Notes under the pieces: generated by a model
Seen by the model: only the letters and a program-made list of their open reading frames with translations
Told to the model about the DNA's origin: nothing
The model's database searches: none
In this document: one piece after another, positions 6,634 to 37,331 of the stretch
Layout: the number at the start of each line of letters is the position of its first letter
Numbering within the stretch: position 1 is the first letter of the stretch
Program-made: the position numbers and the translations under genes
DNA from: Pirellulales bacterium
Lineage (GTDB): Bacteria; Planctomycetota; Planctomycetia; Pirellulales; JAICIG01
NCBI GenBank assembly: GCA_035533075.1
Contig: DATLUO010000015.1
Coordinates: forward strand, 1-37,601
Direction of reading: 5' to 3'
Length of the DNA: 37,601 bases

Positions 6634-6727
6634 GTAGGGTGGGACAACCGAGCTTGCGAGCGCCGGCCCACCACGATTGCCGAAAAATGGTGGGCCGGCG
6701 CTCGCAAGCTCGCTTGTCCCACCCTAC
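6634..6727. repeat. complete palindromic element (family A) upstream of nirBD
   Basis: Two 40-bp arms, 6634-6673 and 6688-6727, pair at 39 of 40 positions around a 14-base loop. The element ends 36 bp before the nirBD start codon. Partial copies occur at 141-160 and within narB at 2645-2684. Confidence 0.95.
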
Positions 6728-6763
6728 GAACCCGCGTCCAGCCGCTTGCTTGAAGGTGATCCA

Positions 6764-9700
6764 ATGATTCGATCCAACACGAAGACCGTCGTTGTCATCG
6801 GCAACGGCATGGTCGGTCACCGGTTCTGCGAGAAGCTGGTTGAATTCGACAAGCTCCATCAATACAAGATCGTCACGTTTTGCGAGGAGCCGCGCGCGGC
6901 CTACGACCGCGTCGGGCTGACCTCGTTTTTCGCTCATCGCGATGCCGAGAAGCTGATGCTCGCACGGCTCGACTGGTATCGCGAGCACGATATCGATCTC
7001 AACATCGGCGACCGGGCCAACAAGATCGACCGCAAGCATCGGCGGGTCTTCAGCGATCGTGGCCGCGAAATCCCTTACGACTTCGTCGTTCTTGCCACCG
7101 GCTCGTATCCCTTCGTGCCGCAAGTGCCCGGCATCAAGCAACCGGGCGTCTTTGTCTACCGCACGATCGACGACCTGGAGCGGATCATCGCCTATGGCGA
7201 AAAGGTCAGTCGGGCAGCCGTCATCGGCGGCGGGCTGTTGGGACTGGAGGCGGCCAAGGCCAGCTACGATCTGGGACTGGAAACACACGTCGTCGAGTTC
7301 GCGCCGCGGCTCATGCCGAGGCAAATCGACGAGAGTGGCTCGAAGCTGCTGGTGGAAAAGATCGAACGGCTGGGGGTCCGCGTTCATTTGAACAAGAGCA
7401 CCAAAGAAGTGCTCGGCCACGGCGGCGTCGAAGGGCTCATATTCAACGACGATGCGCGGCTCGACGTGGGCATGATCGTCGTCTCGGCGGGTATCCGGCC
7501 TCGCGACGAGTTGGCGCGCGACTGCGGCCTCACGGTGGGCGAGCGGGGAGGCGTCGTCGTTGACGACGCTCTGCAAACGAGCGATCCGCAGGTGCTGGCG
7601 ATCGGCGAAGTGGCCTCTCACCGAGGCATGGTCTACGGTCTGGTCGCCCCGGGTTATGAAATGGCCGAGATCGCGGCCGCCAACTTCTGCGGCGACGAGC
7701 GGGCGTTCACCGGCGCCGACCTGTCGACCAAGCTCAAACTGATGGGCGTCGACGTAGCCAGCTTCGGACGTCATGAAGCCCCGCCCGAAGAGGCCCGCGG
7801 GCTGGTCTACGAAGATCCCTTTGGCGGCGTTTACAAAAAACTCCTCTTCAGCCACGACGGTACACGGCTTGTGGGAGGCATACTGGTGGGCGACGCCGCC
7901 GACTACGGCCGCTTGCTGGCCCTCACCAAGAGCGGCCAGCCGCTGCCCGTTCCGCCGGGCGAATTGATTCTCGGCAAGAAGGATGCGGCGGCCGGCGCCG
8001 GTCTCGACGACGCCTGCCAGGTCTGTTCGTGCAACAACGTCAGCAAAGCACAGATCTGCCGCGCCATTCGCGAGCAAGGGCTTACTGACCTGGGCGCGGT
8101 CAAGGGATGCACCAAGGCCGGCACCGGCTGCGGCGGTTGCCTGCCTTTGGTCAGCGACCTGTTGGCCGCCGAGCTGACGGCCGCGGGCAAGGCCGTGAGC
8201 AAACGTCTTTGCGAGCACTTTGCCTACACGCGGCAGGAGCTGTTCGAGATCGTCAAAATCCGCGGCATCAAAACTTTCGCAGAGATGATCGCCGGTCATG
8301 GCCAGGGGCATGGCTGCGAAATCTGCAAGCCGGCCGTGGCCTCGATTCTGGCCAGCTTGTGGAACGAAAACGTCCTGGCGCCGCCGCACCAAACGCTGCA
8401 AGACACCAACGATCGCTTTCTGGCCAACGTGCAGCGCGACGGCTCGTACAGCGTCGTCCCGCGCGTTCCGGGCGGAGAGATCACGCCCGAAAAACTGATC
8501 GTCCTGGGACAAGTGGCCCGCAAATTCGGCTTGTACTCGAAGATCACCGGAGGGCAGCGCGTCGACCTGTTCGGCGCCAAGCTGCACCAGTTGCCCGATA
8601 TCTGGGAAGAACTGGTCGAGGCGGGGTTCGAGAGCGGTCACGCTTACGGCAAGGCGCTGCGGACCGTGAAGAGTTGCGTGGGGAGCACCTGGTGTCGCTA
8701 CGGAGTGCAAGACTCGGTCGGCTTTGCCATTCGCGTGGAAGAGCGTTATCGCGGCATCCGCGCGCCGCACAAGATCAAGGCCGCGGTATCGGGCTGCGTG
8801 CGTGAATGCGCCGAGGCCCAGGGCAAAGATTTCGGCCTGATCGCCACGGAACAAGGGTACAACCTTTACGTCTGCGGCAATGGCGGCGCCAAACCCCGCC
8901 ACGCCGAGTTGCTGGCCGCCGACCTCGACGAAGACACGGCCATCAAATACATCGACCGCTTCCTGATGTACTACATCCACACCGCCGACCGGCTGACGCG
9001 GACCAGCGTCTGGCTGGAAAAGATGGACGGCGGCATCGACCATCTGCGCGCGGTGATCGTTGACGACAAGTTGGGCATTTGCGACGAACTGGAGCGGCAG
9101 ATCCAGTTCCTCGTCGATTCGTACCGTTGCGAGTGGGCCGAAGTGGTCAACGACCCCGAGCGCCGCCGGTGGTTCAAACAGTTTGTCAACACGGACGAGA
9201 CGGAGCCGGGCATCGAGCTGGTGACCGAGCGAGGCCAGCAACGACCCGCCGATTGGCCGAAGAATTTTGATTTTGTTCCGCTGGAGCAGGTCAAACTGAA
9301 CGGGCACGGTGTGCGTCAGCCCGGCGTAGCAGAACTCGTGAGAGTTCCGGACGTAAACCGCGGCGACGGCCGGACTTCTCACGAAGTCTGCTACGGGCCG
9401 GCCACAAGCTGGGTGAATGTCGGCCGGGTCGAGGATTTTCCCCTCGAGGGCGGCGCCGCGGTGAAGTACGGCAAGTGCCAGCTTGCCGTTTTCCAATTCG
9501 CCAGTCGCGGCGAGTGGTACGCTACGCAGAACATGTGCCCCCACAAGCGGGCCTTCGTGTTGTCGCGCGGCATCATCGGCGATCAGGCAGGGGTGCCCAA
9601 GGTCGCCTGTCCGTTGCACAAGAAGACCTTCGCGCTCGAAACCGGCGAATGTCTGAGCGGCGAAGATTACTCGATCCGCGTGTTTCCCGTGAAAGTGGAG

Positions 9701-9859
9701 GGTGGCGAGGTGTACCTCGAACTTCCACCGGAGCACGAGCTTGACCTGGGATTAGCCACCGATCTGCACGCGGTCCGCGGCTGCCAGGATCGCGCGCCGG
9801 GGTGTCTGCAACTAACTTCCGCGCCGCCACGTGCCAGTCATCTAAGCAGTATCGCTTAA
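6764..9859 (+). CDS. nirBD: single-chain assimilatory nitrite reductase, NirB-NirD fusion
   Basis: This 1031-residue protein should reduce nitrite to ammonium with NAD(P)H. It starts at ATG 6764, preceded by GAAGGTGAT, and MIRSNTKTVVVIGNGMVG is a natural NirB N-terminus. Upstream codons belong to the palindrome. Domains in order are FAD/NAD(P)-binding Rossmann folds (VVIGNGMVG near residue 9 and AVIGGGLLGLEAA near residue 150), a BFD-like [2Fe-2S] domain (CQVCSC and GCTKAGTGCGGC, about 418-460), and the ferredoxin-like and sirohaem/[4Fe-4S] reductase domains (CVGSTWC near 637, SGCVRECAEA near 676). A NirD Rieske-fold domain follows (about 883-990). Unlike E. coli NirD, it keeps the CPH and CPLH ligand pairs, so it may hold a Rieske cluster. 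The junction between NirB and NirD parts is encoded by a palindromic element at 9325-9395. The last ~20 residues may also be repeat-derived. Confidence 0.94.
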   Translation: MIRSNTKTVVVIGNGMVGHRFCEKLVEFDKLHQYKIVTFCEEPRAAYDRVGLTSFFAHRDAEKLMLARLDWYREHDIDLNIGDRANKIDRKHRRVFSDRGREIPYDFVVLATGSYPFVPQVPGIKQPGVFVYRTIDDLERIIAYGEKVSRAAVIGGGLLGLEAAKASYDLGLETHVVEFAPRLMPRQIDESGSKLLVEKIERLGVRVHLNKSTKEVLGHGGVEGLIFNDDARLDVGMIVVSAGIRPRDELARDCGLTVGERGGVVVDDALQTSDPQVLAIGEVASHRGMVYGLVAPGYEMAEIAAANFCGDERAFTGADLSTKLKLMGVDVASFGRHEAPPEEARGLVYEDPFGGVYKKLLFSHDGTRLVGGILVGDAADYGRLLALTKSGQPLPVPPGELILGKKDAAAGAGLDDACQVCSCNNVSKAQICRAIREQGLTDLGAVKGCTKAGTGCGGCLPLVSDLLAAELTAAGKAVSKRLCEHFAYTRQELFEIVKIRGIKTFAEMIAGHGQGHGCEICKPAVASILASLWNENVLAPPHQTLQDTNDRFLANVQRDGSYSVVPRVPGGEITPEKLIVLGQVARKFGLYSKITGGQRVDLFGAKLHQLPDIWEELVEAGFESGHAYGKALRTVKSCVGSTWCRYGVQDSVGFAIRVEERYRGIRAPHKIKAAVSGCVRECAEAQGKDFGLIATEQGYNLYVCGNGGAKPRHAELLAADLDEDTAIKYIDRFLMYYIHTADRLTRTSVWLEKMDGGIDHLRAVIVDDKLGICDELERQIQFLVDSYRCEWAEVVNDPERRRWFKQFVNTDETEPGIELVTERGQQRPADWPKNFDFVPLEQVKLNGHGVRQPGVAELVRVPDVNRGDGRTSHEVCYGPATSWVNVGRVEDFPLEGGAAVKYGKCQLAVFQFASRGEWYATQNMCPHKRAFVLSRGIIGDQAGVPKVACPLHKKTFALETGECLSGEDYSIRVFPVKVEGGEVYLELPPEHELDLGLATDLHAVRGCQDRAPGCLQLTSAPPRASHLSSIA
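9325..9395. repeat. palindromic element (family E) at the NirB-NirD junction
   Basis: Arms 9325-9350 and 9370-9395 pair at 22 of 26 positions. Each arm is also a small hairpin by itself, AACTC-GTGA-GAGTT on the left and GACTTC-TCAC-GAAGTC (as read on the plus strand in the right arm), and the differences between arms keep these inner stems paired. It is translated without a stop as the linker between the two domains. Confidence 0.88.
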
Positions 9860-13408: not shown

Positions 13409-13783
13409 AGAACCCGTCAGTTTGCCGAGAGAGCATTGGCACCCGCCGCAACGCAGCCCGCGTGCCCGTGATCTGCGCGGCGCGGTTTTTTTCGGAAAGC
13501 CGAAGTGACTCTGCCAATTTCAATCTTCGCCGGCCCTCGACTGCTGCTGATATGTCGCGCAGTACCGCCCAATTGTAATGCCGCCGCGGCGTCATGTCTG
13601 CGTGCGGCTCTACTTCACGCGGACCGCGTCACGAACGTGGCGCAGCGTTCCTAGGCCGCCAAAACCGGGTGACGGCTTGTAATCGGGGCAAGAAGTTGCG
13701 TGGCGCTCCGCGCTTAATTATAATCCGCGTCACAATCGTCCCATCCCTTCTGGCCCCATCGCCCCATCCGCGGAAACTTTGCT
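13409..13783. other. intergenic region with dispersed repeat and amylase promoter
   Basis: Positions 13448-13580 hold a copy of the dispersed repeat also found at 6330-6600 (shared cores GCCCGCGTGCCCG, TCGGAAAGCCGAAG). The rest has the promoter described at 13696-13724. No gene is supported. Confidence 0.75.
13696..13724 (+). promoter_or_regulatory. sigma-70-like promoter of the amylase-like gene
   Basis: TTGCGT (13696-13701), a 17-base spacer and a perfect TATAAT (13719-13724) stand 60 bp before the GTG start at 13784 in an AT-rich patch of otherwise GC-rich DNA. Confidence 0.55.
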
Positions 13784-16700
13784 GTGAATCGCACCCCATT
13801 CGGCACTCGCCGCCGTCCGGCCCGCAAGGCCGCCCGCCGCCCACGTCGGCTCATTCGAGAAGTTTTGGAAATACGGTTGGTTCTCGATGTTTCGGCCCCG
13901 CCCATTCTGCAATGGTTCGAGGGGAGCTATAACACGATCGAACAACGAGTGCCCGATATCTTCGCAGCCGGTTACGGCGCCGTGCTCACGCCGCCGCCCG
14001 GACGGGCCGACTCGGGCAACCAGTCGGTCGGCTACGATGTCTACAACCGCTTCGACCTCGGCAGCCCCGGCGACCCCACGCTGTACGGCACCGAGACCGG
14101 CCTGAAGGCGATGGTCGCCGCCATCCACCAGACGGGCGCCAGCTACTACAGCGACCTCGTCTGGAACCACGACGGCTTCGAGAACCTGGGCACGCCCGGC
14201 TTTGCGGCGTCGGGCGGCTACCCTGGCTTCGCGCTCACGCTCAATCCCTCCAACAACGACGCCGGCTACAACGACATCGACGGCGATTTCCACAGCGCCT
14301 ACGACACCAGCACCACGGGCATGCGGCTGTCGGGCCTGATCGACATCGCCCAAGAGAAGAACTACCAGTTCATCCGCAACCCGGTCGGTCCGAACCCGAT
14401 GAACCTGCCGGCCGGCACGACGCCGCTCAACGGCCGCCTGGCCAATGTGCCCGATCCGAACAACGCCCGCTTCTATCCCGACCAGAACCTGCCGCCGATC
14501 ACGGTGAACGACCCGGCCACCGGCGAGTACAACCTGAAGATTTACCCGTTCAACAACGCCCAGCCGCTCGACGGCACGCCGGTGGCAGAGAACGCCCTGG
14601 GCTATTTGATGCGCTATGCGCAGTGGATGGTGCAGACCATCGGCGTGGACGGTTTTCGCCTCGACGCGGCGAAGAACATGCCGTCTTGGGTGCTCAACTA
14701 TTACGATCAGGCCGTCTACCGTTCGTCGGACCGCACGCTTTTGAACGGCAGCCAGGAACCGATCTTCGGCTTCAGCGAGGTCTACGACGGCGACAAGAGT
14801 TTGCTGCAACAGTACGTCAACAAAGACATCAACCCCAATGACCCGAGCACGGTGGGCGGCAACCGCGACGTGCTCGATTTTCCCCTCTTTTTCGCCCTGC
14901 AAAGCAACCTCACCAGCAACGGCTACCAGAACAACTGGTACAACGTCGTCAACGCCAGCCAAGACTCGCAAGACGACGGCCTGGCCAACAACGGCTCCGA
15001 AGGCGTCTCCTTCGTCAGCAGCGCCGACAACGGCCCGCCTTATCTCGACAACGTGGCCTACGCCTACACCCTCACGCGGCCGGGCAACACCATCGTCTAC
15101 GACAACGGGCACGAGTTCGGCAACAACCGCTCCTTTCCGGCGGACGGCCGCGGCGACGCGCTGGGCGGACTCTACGGCGACACCATCACCAGCCTAGTCA
15201 ACATCCGTGACACTCACCCCGACGGCAACTACGACCAGCGCTACATCGACAACAACGTGCTCGTCTACGAACGTGATGACTCGATGCTCGTCGGCCTCAA
15301 CAACCGGCTTGACAGCGGCTACGACAACCGAACGGTCCACACCGACTTCGCCCCCGGCACCTATCTGGTCGAGCTGACCGGCAACGCCGGAAATCCGAGC
15401 ACCAACGAGGATGGCAATGTTCGTCCGCTCTTGCAGGTCGACCAGTACGGCAACGTCAACTTGAACGTGCCGCGCAACCAGGACGACGGCAACTTCACCG
15501 GTGACGGTTATGTGATTTACGCCCCCGCGTCGCCTCAAGGCAATCTGACCATAAATGGCCTCGATCACGTCATTCCCGGCGACACGCCGACGACCGACAC
15601 CAACGGCAGCGCCCGGCTCTCGCCGATCGACGTCGTCACCGGCAACACCTTCCAGATCCAACTCGACACCAACAACGTCAACCTGCTGGCCAACCCGCAA
15701 TTTCACGATCAGGATGCCAACGGCGACAACGCACTCTACAAGATCGACGGCGGCGTAGACGCCACGGGCAGCGGTTTTGTCGACACTACGCCCGGCGACG
15801 CGGCCTATGGCTTCCAGCAGTTCACCACGCTTCACAATCCCGGTTATTTCAGCGCCGACGGCGATGGCGAGTATCTCCAGACCATCGACACTTCGAAGCT
15901 GTCGAACGGCTACCACTACATCGACGTGCGCGCTTTCCGCCACCGCGACCCTGGCGAGCCGCCCATCTTCACCGACTTCAAGGTGACGATCTATGTCGAC
16001 CGCTCGCCTACCGTGTCGAAGGTCGTCAGCCTTACCGATGTGACACCGGGCGACAACGAGGACGAGGTGCTGACGGTCCGATCGACCGACATGCTCGCCA
16101 ACAACGTTCACGTCTTCTTCGACCTGCCGGCCGGCCTGACCGACTCGCAGATCCTCAGCATGGTAGGCAGTGCCAATCAGGCCACGCAGATCGACCGCGA
16201 CCTGTGGACCATGGAAATGACCGGCCTGACCAGTGGAAACCACGTGGCCACGGTCGTTTCTTACCAGGTCGACGGCAGCGCCAGTATCCAGCGGTTCCCC
16301 GGCTTGTTTACCTCGACGATTTACGGCTCCGGCCTCGGCGACCTCGACTTCGACGGCAAGATCGACGCCAACGACGTCGAGTTATTTGGCCGGGTGCTGG
16401 AAAGCCACAACACGCAGTTCAATCCGGCCGCCGATCTCAACGGCGACGGGCAAATCGACAGCACCGACCTGATCTTGCTGTACCCCACGCTCTTGGCGGC
16501 CCATGCCGACGCCGCCACCCTGGCCGCTTTCCAGCAGTTGCTCGGCCCCGCTGCCGGCGGCGATACGGTCCTGGAAGGAACGAATCTGACGCTGTCGGCG
16601 AACGAGCCGACGGGCACGACACCGCCCTTGAGCTTCTCATGGGCTTTGAACGACGACGGCAATTTCGGCGATGCCACAGGGGTTTCGCCCACGCTCACCT

Positions 16701-33841: not shown

Positions 33842-36751
33842 TTGATCGACAATGATGCGTGTGATTACAACGACCTCGATCCGTCAGTTGGCGAGGGGGT
33901 CCGCGGCGAGATGACCGGCCGAAAGCACGCCCTTGACCTGCACCGGTGGTTTGCTCGTCGCCCGCTCACCTTGACGCGGGTCGCGGCGTACTTGGCACTC
34001 ACCGGGGGAGTTGATTCAGGTTCTGACATCGTGAAGGCCCTTGCGGCCCCAACTCCGGACGCCGCCACCCTACGAGCGGCACGCGAACGGATTCGCGAGG
34101 CGCTGGGAGTGGCCTGTTCCGACGACGACGCGGCGCACGATTGCGACGACTTCCGCGCGAACGTTCTGGATCCCTTTGCTGGAGGCGGGAGCGTCCCTCT
34201 TGAGGCGCTTCGTCTCGGATGCTCAGCGACGGCCGGTGAACTCAACCCGCTGGCGGCAGCTATTCTGCGCGCAACGTTGAGCTTTCCCGTGCGGTTGGCC
34301 CCAAAGCAATCGGCAGAACGTCGGCCCTCTGGCGAGCATCGCTGGGAGGGCCTCCTGCCTGAGTTTGAGCGGTGGTTTACCGAATTACAGACCGATGTTG
34401 CCAATCGGTGGTCGAAGCTTTACGCGCGCGAAGACGCGACCGTGTATCGGCTTTGGGTCCGGCGAGCGAAGTGCCCGAATGAACAATGCGGTTGCAATGT
34501 TCCCTTGAGACTGCAGGTCGATCTCGATGCTTGTAAACTTGCCGCTGTGTTCCATTGTGCCGACGGTCAGACAGCGTTCGCTTTGACCGAAGTCTCAGAA
34601 GGGGCGGCCGAAGGTCGCGGCTCCGTGTGCCCATTCTGTGGCACTGCAATGTCGACTCACGAGCTTCGTTCGCAAAACGGTCTGACTGCTCCGCCCATAC
34701 TCGCAGCCGTCGCACGCCGTTCCGACGCGAGACTCTCGTGGTCCACCGCAACATCCGAGGAATCATGGGACCTTGCGAGCGGCCAGCGCGACCGGCTGGC
34801 CGAGTTGATGCGAGGAATAGCCGGACGCGCGCTGGAGCATCCTGTGCGGCGCGGCTCGGTATCCGCGCTGAACGAGCCGGAAGCGACGACGTTCGCAGAC
34901 CTGTTTTCCCCTCGGCAACTCCTCGCAAATCTCGAGCTATCTGACGCAATAGCGACCATCAAGGCTCGCATGGCTCGGGAGGGCCTCGCCAAGGAACACG
35001 TGGGGGCATTAACCACCTATTTTGCGTTCAGCCTGGGTTATGTCGCGCAGCGTAATTGCGTCCTCACTTCGTGGAACAGCCAACGTCAAACCCCCATTGA
35101 TGCTCTCGCTAACATGGGGTTCCGATTCCGCCGGGAATTCATCGAGGCGGCGCCAATGCCGCTTCTAGAGCGTTGGTTTCAGGTGACGAGGCAGTCGCTG
35201 GAGGAACTGACATGTCTTCCCCTAGCGGCAACCGTCCTGGAAACAAACGCAGAAACGCTGCCCCTGTCCGACAATACCTTCGACGCGGTCGTCACCGATC
35301 CGCCGTACTTCGATAACATTCCCTATTTCCAGCTATCGTGCTTCTACTGGGCGTGGGAGTCGCGGTTCGCCTCCGGCCGAGCCGAGCATGCGTTCGTTCA
35401 ACCCGATCGCGACCTGGACGAGCTCGTCGTGGTCGACAAAGATGCCTTCGTCGAACGATATGAAACCGGATTGGGGAACTGCTTTGCCCAATGCTTCCGC
35501 GTTCTCAAGCCTGGACGTTTGCTCTGCCTGATTCTAACATCGACCAGCCGCCCCCATTTCCACTCGTTTGTGGGACTTTCCGAAGCGGCAGGGTTTGAGA
35601 TCGTCAGCGTCAAGCGAGTGCCGCTGGACGGGGCGCAAGCTGGAACGTTCCTGGTCTACCTGCGAAAACCCAGCAGCCCGTCAGAGCATCTTGGATTAGC
35701 GACAGATGCGGACGTTGCGCTTGAGCGGCTTGATTCGGGCGAGGCGGTCAACTATGAGGCCCTTGCGCAATTGTTGTCGGAACAACTTGAGCCCGACGAC
35801 GTTGAGGAAATACTGCCGCGTGGCTCAAAAGGACCACAGATCGAGCGTTTGCAGGAGGCCCTTGCCGTGAACGACCCGCGTGAACTTTTGGAGCGGAACC
35901 TCGGCAGGCAAACCCTCCGGCGCATCGCTCGCGAGAAGGGACTTCTAGCGGCGGACGCAAAGCAGAGCAATCCCGTCGACGCGCTCCTATTGCATTTCGG
36001 CTTCCGCGTTCCGAGTCCAGGTGCCCGCGACGGCGTCCGGCAGGCTATCGATAGAATTCGGCACAACGCCTCGCGGCTGCGGCAGAGCCGTGAGATACAT
36101 GAGATCAACGGGCTGGCCAGCGAGGCGACGAACATGGTAGAGGCGATGATCAAGCGCGGTGTCTATGCGTGGGCACGTATTGCCTTTGGCCAGGGCGCCG
36201 ACGAATCGTTGAAGCGACTGCTCGCGACGCGCGGGAAGCCATCGGCCGATCTACGACGGCTTTCCTTCGGCGACTACCTGACGTTGTTTGAGGAGCTCCC
36301 AGATTGCATCTGTCAAAGTGCCTTCGCAAACCGCGTCAAGCAAAAGTTTGGCCGCGCACACATTTATCTCCCTAAAAAGCCGAAGAATAACAGTTTGAGC
36401 GATCGCATTCGCAAAGTCGTCAGCGTTCGCAACAAGGTAGCGCACGCGACGGCCGATCTATCCGATATGCGCGACGAGCTAGTCACGACGCTGGAGATGG
36501 CCGCACTGCTGCTCGATGAGTTGGCAACCGAGCACGCAATTCCACGTGTGGGAGTCGCATCGAAAGAGATTCACGACATGTGGGGCCGCACCGTATACGA
36601 AATCCGGCTGGACAACGGTGCCGCCTTTGAGGCGGTTTTCAGTTCGAAGCTGCAACTTGGGCAGTCTTACTTCTTTTTTGGAAGCGTGGCGAATCCGATC
36701 CCGGTGGACCCGATTCTCATCTCGATCGAAGACGTTGGTGACATTCCGTGA
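33842..36751 (+). CDS. DUF1156-like DNA methyltransferase with C-terminal HEPN-like segment
   Basis: This 969-residue protein starts at TTG 33842 with AGGTG just upstream; ATG 33911 is an alternative but starts inside the DUF1156-like GRKHALDLHRWFARRPL segment. The SAM-binding motif VLDPFAGGGS (about 108-117) is followed by ELNPLA. Two zinc-ribbon-type pairs, KCPNEQC and VCPFCGT, lie between about 210 and 270. The catalytic DPPY is at 486-489 (VVTDPPYFDNIPY). The order is FxGxG first and DPPY later, as in alpha-class amino methyltransferases. Substrates are probably N6-adenine or N4-cytosine. A helical region from about 750 contains R863-NKVA-H868 (R-x4-H), typical of HEPN domains. The final ~55 residues form a beta-rich tail (MWGRTVYEIRLDNG). 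The DUF1156-family N-terminus is inferred by motif, not by search. No restriction enzyme or specificity partner lies beside it. Confidence 0.82.
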   Translation: MIDNDACDYNDLDPSVGEGVRGEMTGRKHALDLHRWFARRPLTLTRVAAYLALTGGVDSGSDIVKALAAPTPDAATLRAARERIREALGVACSDDDAAHDCDDFRANVLDPFAGGGSVPLEALRLGCSATAGELNPLAAAILRATLSFPVRLAPKQSAERRPSGEHRWEGLLPEFERWFTELQTDVANRWSKLYAREDATVYRLWVRRAKCPNEQCGCNVPLRLQVDLDACKLAAVFHCADGQTAFALTEVSEGAAEGRGSVCPFCGTAMSTHELRSQNGLTAPPILAAVARRSDARLSWSTATSEESWDLASGQRDRLAELMRGIAGRALEHPVRRGSVSALNEPEATTFADLFSPRQLLANLELSDAIATIKARMAREGLAKEHVGALTTYFAFSLGYVAQRNCVLTSWNSQRQTPIDALANMGFRFRREFIEAAPMPLLERWFQVTRQSLEELTCLPLAATVLETNAETLPLSDNTFDAVVTDPPYFDNIPYFQLSCFYWAWESRFASGRAEHAFVQPDRDLDELVVVDKDAFVERYETGLGNCFAQCFRVLKPGRLLCLILTSTSRPHFHSFVGLSEAAGFEIVSVKRVPLDGAQAGTFLVYLRKPSSPSEHLGLATDADVALERLDSGEAVNYEALAQLLSEQLEPDDVEEILPRGSKGPQIERLQEALAVNDPRELLERNLGRQTLRRIAREKGLLAADAKQSNPVDALLLHFGFRVPSPGARDGVRQAIDRIRHNASRLRQSREIHEINGLASEATNMVEAMIKRGVYAWARIAFGQGADESLKRLLATRGKPSADLRRLSFGDYLTLFEELPDCICQSAFANRVKQKFGRAHIYLPKKPKNNSLSDRIRKVVSVRNKVAHATADLSDMRDELVTTLEMAALLLDELATEHAIPRVGVASKEIHDMWGRTVYEIRLDNGAAFEAVFSSKLQLGQSYFFFGSVANPIPVDPILISIEDVGDIP

Positions 36752-36920: not shown

Positions 36921-37331
36921 TCACGAGCGACCACCGAAGTGTCGTGACGCCACCTCGTCGATGTCGGTCCAATGGTCACCTACTTGGCCGGTCGCAGTCC
37001 CTGTCACCTCGGAGCCGCAGCAATTTCCGTCGGCGGTCGGACCGATAAGGTACCGATGGAGGTTGCATTCTGGTTCGTTCGGTTTTCGCTTGTCCTCGAA
37101 GCGTACCCATTCGATTGCGACTTGCGAACCGCATTTGGCAAACGCCCCATACACCTCGCCAAGGTCCACGCCGCTGGCGGCAACGTAGATGGTTTGTGGA
37201 TGGCGTTCGACATGCGGTAGGAGCAAGCCGGCATCAGCCTTTTCGAGCTCGCAAACTCTATCCGACCCGATGTAGTCGCGTACCAGAGCGAAGTTCTCGG
37301 GATCAACGTTAAACAGCTTATGGTTCATCAT
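36921..37331 (-). CDS. small conserved-looking protein of unknown function
   Basis: A 136-residue product, read leftward from ATG 37331, preceded on the minus strand by GGAGAAAAA. A tandem ATG at 37328 could also be used. No membrane segment or known motif is seen. It is moderately acidic. It is convergent with the methyltransferase gene, 169 bp apart. Upstream in-frame codons to 37598 are arginine-rich and probably not translated. Confidence 0.5.
   Translation of the reverse strand: MMNHKLFNVDPENFALVRDYIGSDRVCELEKADAGLLLPHVERHPQTIYVAASGVDLGEVYGAFAKCGSQVAIEWVRFEDKRKPNEPECNLHRYLIGPTADGNCCGSEVTGTATGQVGDHWTDIDEVASRHFGGRS

Follow-up and report, generated by a model that had tools for sequence, protein, structure and literature searches.

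A diverged DUF1156-family methyltransferase with a putative C-terminal HEPN endoribonuclease domain in a Pirellulales bacterium

The survey of the HEPN superfamily describes the HEPN domains of R-M systems as fused to nucleases, helicases and ATPases and not to methylases, and takes this as an argument that the RNase is tied to restriction rather than to modification (PMC3710099). Table 1 of the same survey records occasional fusions of HEPN-M domains to domains of nucleic acid methylases (PMC3710099), so that a methylase fusion is not wholly unprecedented. A 2026 survey of BREX-related (BR) systems places HEPN, in its available text, on the DUF499 ATPase (PMC12839542), and a phrase search of the open-licence literature retrieved no paper naming a HEPN-methyltransferase. 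The superfamily is marked by an Rx4-6H motif with a polar residue (N, D or H) following the R, to which an Ex3[KR] motif is added in many families (PMC3710099).

The window analysed here is an entire contig of a Pirellulales bacterium (C15, DATLUO010000015.1), 37601 bases in length. An ORF occupying exactly positions 33842-36751 of the forward strand encodes from a TTG start a protein of 969 aa, hereafter the HEPN-methyltransferase, and the frame stays open for another 22 codons upstream of the TTG. The ORF is real and complete, as its codon-position G+C pattern agrees with that of its neighbours and one full-length relative exists, while its exact start is uncertain (TTG or ATG, see below). 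The features of the coding sequence and of its methyltransferase half are as follows.

33842..36751, + strand: coding sequence of the HEPN-methyltransferase, TTG start, with an in-frame ATG alternative at 33911
33890..34003, + strand: DUF1156-like N-terminal segment (residues 17-54, HRWFARRPL), which aligns in relatives; PF06634 at 17.9 bits, short of the cut-off of 24
34169..34192, + strand: methyltransferase motif I, DPFAGGGS (residues 110-117), conserved in the relative and in other DUF1156 proteins
34472..34639, + strand: stretch with the cysteine pairs C211/C216 and C263/C266, invariant in alignment A1, possibly a zinc ribbon
35297..35308, + strand: methyltransferase motif IV, DPPY (residues 486-489), DPPF in the relative

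Residues 1-600 constitute a methyltransferase of the DUF1156/HmaB type, matching the PADLOC HmaB model at E=1e-32 and retaining both adenine-methyltransferase motifs intact. The NCBIfam model DUF1156_antiphage matches the 969-aa protein at E=4e-17 and 61.8 bits, far below its equivalog cut-off of 1000. Likeness to DUF1156 proteins elsewhere in the phylum ends near residue 600, and the remainder (residues 601-969) is common only to the one full-length relative, encoded in the planctomycete MAG OFTM316 (L007/L036, JAJFFG010000069.1), with 36% identity overall and 40% in this part; the C-terminus is therefore specific to the pair. In a tree of the methyltransferase core the two HEPN-methyltransferases are sisters with a support of 1.0 and stand apart from ordinary HmaB proteins, including those encoded in the same two genomes. 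A Pfam scan for a fused DNA endonuclease, a Type IIG feature, detected no nuclease domain, the stretch at residues 610-730 being modelled at a pLDDT mostly below 60.

Searches with the C-terminus covered 397 class-level genomes, 97 relatives and a phylum-wide set of 392 genomes and returned these two members only, and scans of genome_contigs recovered the OFTM316 relative alone. Conservation of the C-terminus thus rests on one comparison. No match was obtained in the plasmid and phage collections, nor in viral_contigs with the C-terminal query, while the whole-protein query found in the latter six distant methyltransferases, none with a fitting C-terminal motif. A weak match in genome G671 (L049) was considered as a third member and rejected, as its frame carries stops.

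The C-terminal part is composed of the following elements.

35669..36031, + strand: linker helices (residues 610-730), located where ordinary BR methyltransferases have their HTH-like triad
36032..36532, + strand: HEPN-like helical domain (residues 731-897), from two AlphaFold models and PDB comparison
36140..36154, + strand: E767-x3-K771, second HEPN motif Ex3[KR], E-x3-R in the relative
36428..36445, + strand: R863-N-x3-H868 (RNKVAH), candidate active site of a HEPN RNase, which reads RNRVEH in the relative
36542..36748, + strand: small beta-barrel tail (residues 901-969), SH3-like or OB-like, with OB-like rows of the PDB comparison at Z about 6

Both HEPN motifs are present, including the polar residue after the R, and R863, N864, H868 and E767 are invariant between the window protein and its relative. 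Two AlphaFold runs were made, with the window sequence and the relative as respective queries, and each model was compared with the PDB; as both share one two-sequence alignment, they are not fully independent. The place held by the HTH-like triad in BR methyltransferases is modelled with low confidence, and the HEPN-like domain and the barrel come after it instead. The HEPN-like helices have a pLDDT of mostly 70-90, with less certain loops, and in both models the Rx4H motif is found at the end of the helix preceding the last helix, approximately where HepT has it. HEPN entries lead the comparison of the first model (2hsb at Z 9.3, HI0074 at 8.8, HepT at 8.6 and Csm6 at 8.0), while the second model matches HepT (6m6w) at Z 9.9, with 3.2 A over 120 residues. 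The RX4HXY motif of HepT ends at Y104, so that its R is residue 97 and lies 36 residues ahead of the end of the aligned range, and R863 is 34 residues ahead of that end in the first model. The tail resembles SH3-like and OB-like barrels (ribosomal L2, Rpt OB, EutN), the match to the ribosomal L2 barrel having a Foldseek probability of 0.99 and a TMt of 0.66-0.74 over about 45 aa, at an E value that is not significant. 

A sequence-only reading of the locus had proposed a DUF1156-like methyltransferase ending in a helical stretch with RNKVAH at R863-H868, followed by a beta-rich tail, and this architecture is borne out by the HmaB match, the two intact methyltransferase motifs and the agreement of sequence and AlphaFold models. 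The HEPN-like character that it assigned to the C-terminus is likewise upheld as a candidate assignment: the sequence features are present, the predicted fold is compatible with HEPN, and R863 and H868 are conserved in the only homologue found. Neither of the two outcomes that this reading had named as contrary to it was seen. The profile matches over the motif region are weak and to HEPN families (CARF_HEPN, E=0.01; HEPN_RiboL-PSP, E=0.18), and no HEPN profile match to the C-terminus passes its curated cut-off. In a profile-profile comparison with Swt1-type HEPN, the motif alone was aligned (P 0.025, probability 2%).

The OFTM316 relative is the sixth and last gene of an operon-like run in a Type-1 BREX-related (Hma) setting, which comprises in order an SNF2 helicase with NOV_C, HmaB, a HEPN_Swt1-DUF499 protein (HmaC, 1009 bits), a GHKL ATPase, SIR2 and the HEPN-methyltransferase. 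The operon thus already holds an ordinary HmaB. Given that the relative is part of an Hma operon with its own methyltransferase, GHKL ATPase and SIR2, defence is the best reading of its function. The GHKL gene was also traced in the phylum; most of its matches fall in the ATPase region of long proteins of ~640 aa, probably of HtpG type, and the tracing therefore gave no context. Genes for a GmrSD-type protein that has an additional Mrr_N domain, on the opposite strand, and for a large serine recombinase lie next to the operon (L036:9458-12016 and 13549-15465), which suggests a mobile defence island. Another gene whose start looks SIR2-like (VVFLGAGASAP, by eye) is located upstream of the operon (L038:15833-17701).

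In the window, no identifiable defence partner of the HEPN-methyltransferase occurs within 33 kb upstream, and no restriction enzyme, DUF499 ATPase or helicase could be identified up to the contig end, which follows 850 bases past the gene. Within these bases an ORF of 136 aa (36924-37331, - strand) has a codon pattern like that of coding sequence but matches nothing in Pfam; it is probably convergent with the HEPN-methyltransferase gene, which is therefore probably the last of its own transcription unit. Upstream lie two adjacent GYF_2-domain proteins (PF14237; 30953-31837 and 31919-32734), both of which seem by eye to have a membrane segment in the middle, and a 204-aa protein in which one membrane segment is predicted (by eye) and for which no known family was found. 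At a distance, a 1060-aa ORF (6677-9859), which by eye resembles a NirB-like assimilatory nitrite reductase carrying a Rieske-type tail, adjoins nitrate reductase-like and transporter-like genes. A search for DUF499 gave no match on this contig but identified genes on contigs C182 and C193 of the same genome; both have an ordinary DUF1156 methyltransferase and a large, helicase-sized ORF next to them, and C29 gives a weaker match. The genome carries two other Hma-like loci. It also encodes on contig C63 a stand-alone Swt1-like HEPN protein of 216 aa (L047:1435-2085 in G000; PF18731, E=6e-36), which over residues 3-79 shares 53% identity with the N-terminal region of the DUF499 ATPase from the relative's operon and has no fused ATPase. 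The earlier suggestion of a self-contained system with no separate restriction enzyme finds no support here, given the early end of the contig, the two other Hma-like loci and a relative that sits in a complete Hma/BR operon, helicase-nuclease included. Nor does the small membrane protein qualify as a partner, no counterpart of the 204-aa protein being noted in the OFTM316 operon.

Taken together, the protein is probably a diverged DUF1156-family N6-adenine methyltransferase, a paralogue of HmaB, fused to a C-terminal HEPN endoribonuclease and a small beta-barrel, and may constitute a latent abortive-infection effector. This reading draws on the sequence motifs, their conservation in one relative, a HEPN-compatible predicted fold and the relative's defence operon. 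The methyltransferase half would read or mark DNA at a target site, its putative substrate, and the HEPN half would be kept inactive while the protein engages properly modified self DNA or a partner complex, each half possibly controlling the other. Infection, loss of modification or unmodified DNA would release the HEPN half, which as an active RNase would cut cellular or phage RNA, so that growth stops and the protein may provide a backup abortive infection in its own genome too. This scheme follows proposals for HEPN domains in R-M and BR systems (PMC3710099, PMC12839542). That the modification enzyme itself carries a suicide RNase, the methyltransferase sensing modification loss or unmodified DNA and directly licensing its own HEPN domain, is put forward tentatively.

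The catalytic part of this reading has to be weighed against two other views of the C-terminus. A motif of the R[NDH]x3-5H type arises in 22% of shuffles of the 369-aa C-terminus and in a single sequence means little by itself, and while structure prediction did yield a helical bundle with HEPN entries in the lead, unrelated four-helix bundles (including BRIL fusions) score Z 9.0-9.2, within 1 Z of the HEPN entries, so that the fold match cannot decide the matter by itself. As the models are of moderate confidence and derive from two sequences, the region might be such an unrelated bundle, for instance a portion of the C-terminal HTH-like module found in BR methyltransferases, with RNKVAH as a coincidence. 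We regard this as quite improbable, since two diverged proteins share the motif at the same column, correctly placed before the last helix (1.3% of column shuffles), the second HEPN motif is present, and the weak independent profile matches over the motif region are to HEPN families; moreover, a motif of this type is absent from the last 420 residues of all other full-length DUF1156 methyltransferases collected. A HEPN-like bundle may also be real but non-catalytic, with a role in dimerisation or in the binding of nucleic acids, in a DNA methyltransferase that is solitary or accessory, as some HEPN domains lack catalysis (PMC3710099) and the window gene is solitary as far as the contig extends. 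However, the catalytic R, the polar N, the H and the Ex3[KR] motif are all kept at 36-40% identity, which makes such a role unlikely.

The HmaB-like sequence, together with the contig being cut shortly past the gene, would also suit a plain modification subunit of an Hma/BR system whose remaining genes lie beyond the contig end, the HEPN domain being an accidental decoration. This is very improbable, as the relative's operon has its ordinary HmaB already, the HEPN-methyltransferases form a well-supported clade of their own, the DUF499 genes of the own genome are on C182, C193 and C29 and none is on this contig, and the ORF that follows the gene is probably convergent.

Compared to known systems, the HEPN-methyltransferase is most similar to HmaB, the DUF1156 N6-methyltransferase of Type-1 BR systems, with which it shares the DUF1156-like start, the order from motif I to DPPY, the long spacing between them and the overall length, and the OFTM316 relative is encoded in such an operon. 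It differs in its C-terminus with HEPN domain and beta-barrel and in its separate clade, and in OFTM316 it stands beside the HmaB of the operon and does not replace it. Like HmaC, it carries a HEPN RNase domain, here a candidate one, on a core subunit of such systems, and the motifs are alike (VRNRWAH in HmaC, VRNKVAH here), whereas the HEPN domain is N-terminal on an ATPase in HmaC and C-terminal on a methyltransferase here, with no detectable homology between the two domains beyond the motif. HepT of the HEPN/MNT toxin-antitoxin systems is among the top structural matches and has likewise Rx4H before the last helix, but the tyrosine of its RX4HXY is not present (HAT in the window protein, HDR in the relative), and no MNT domain or antitoxin gene was seen in the neighbour genes scanned. 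By analogy, the scheme proposed here would resemble the RM-coupled RNase of the PrrC/EcoprrI type, which is silenced by the modification system and freed on attack (PMC3710099), although PrrC is a separate protein and the RNase domain is here fused to the methyltransferase. The layout is new only in part, as HEPN was already known in DUF499/DUF1156 systems, on the DUF499 ATPase, and what is new is its placement on the methyltransferase. This pairing is rare, with two members known. A conserved HEPN domain on a methyltransferase of the DUF1156 type would stand as a counter-example to the generalisation of the HEPN survey (PMC3710099), and would make the gating of an abortive RNase by a modification subunit directly testable.
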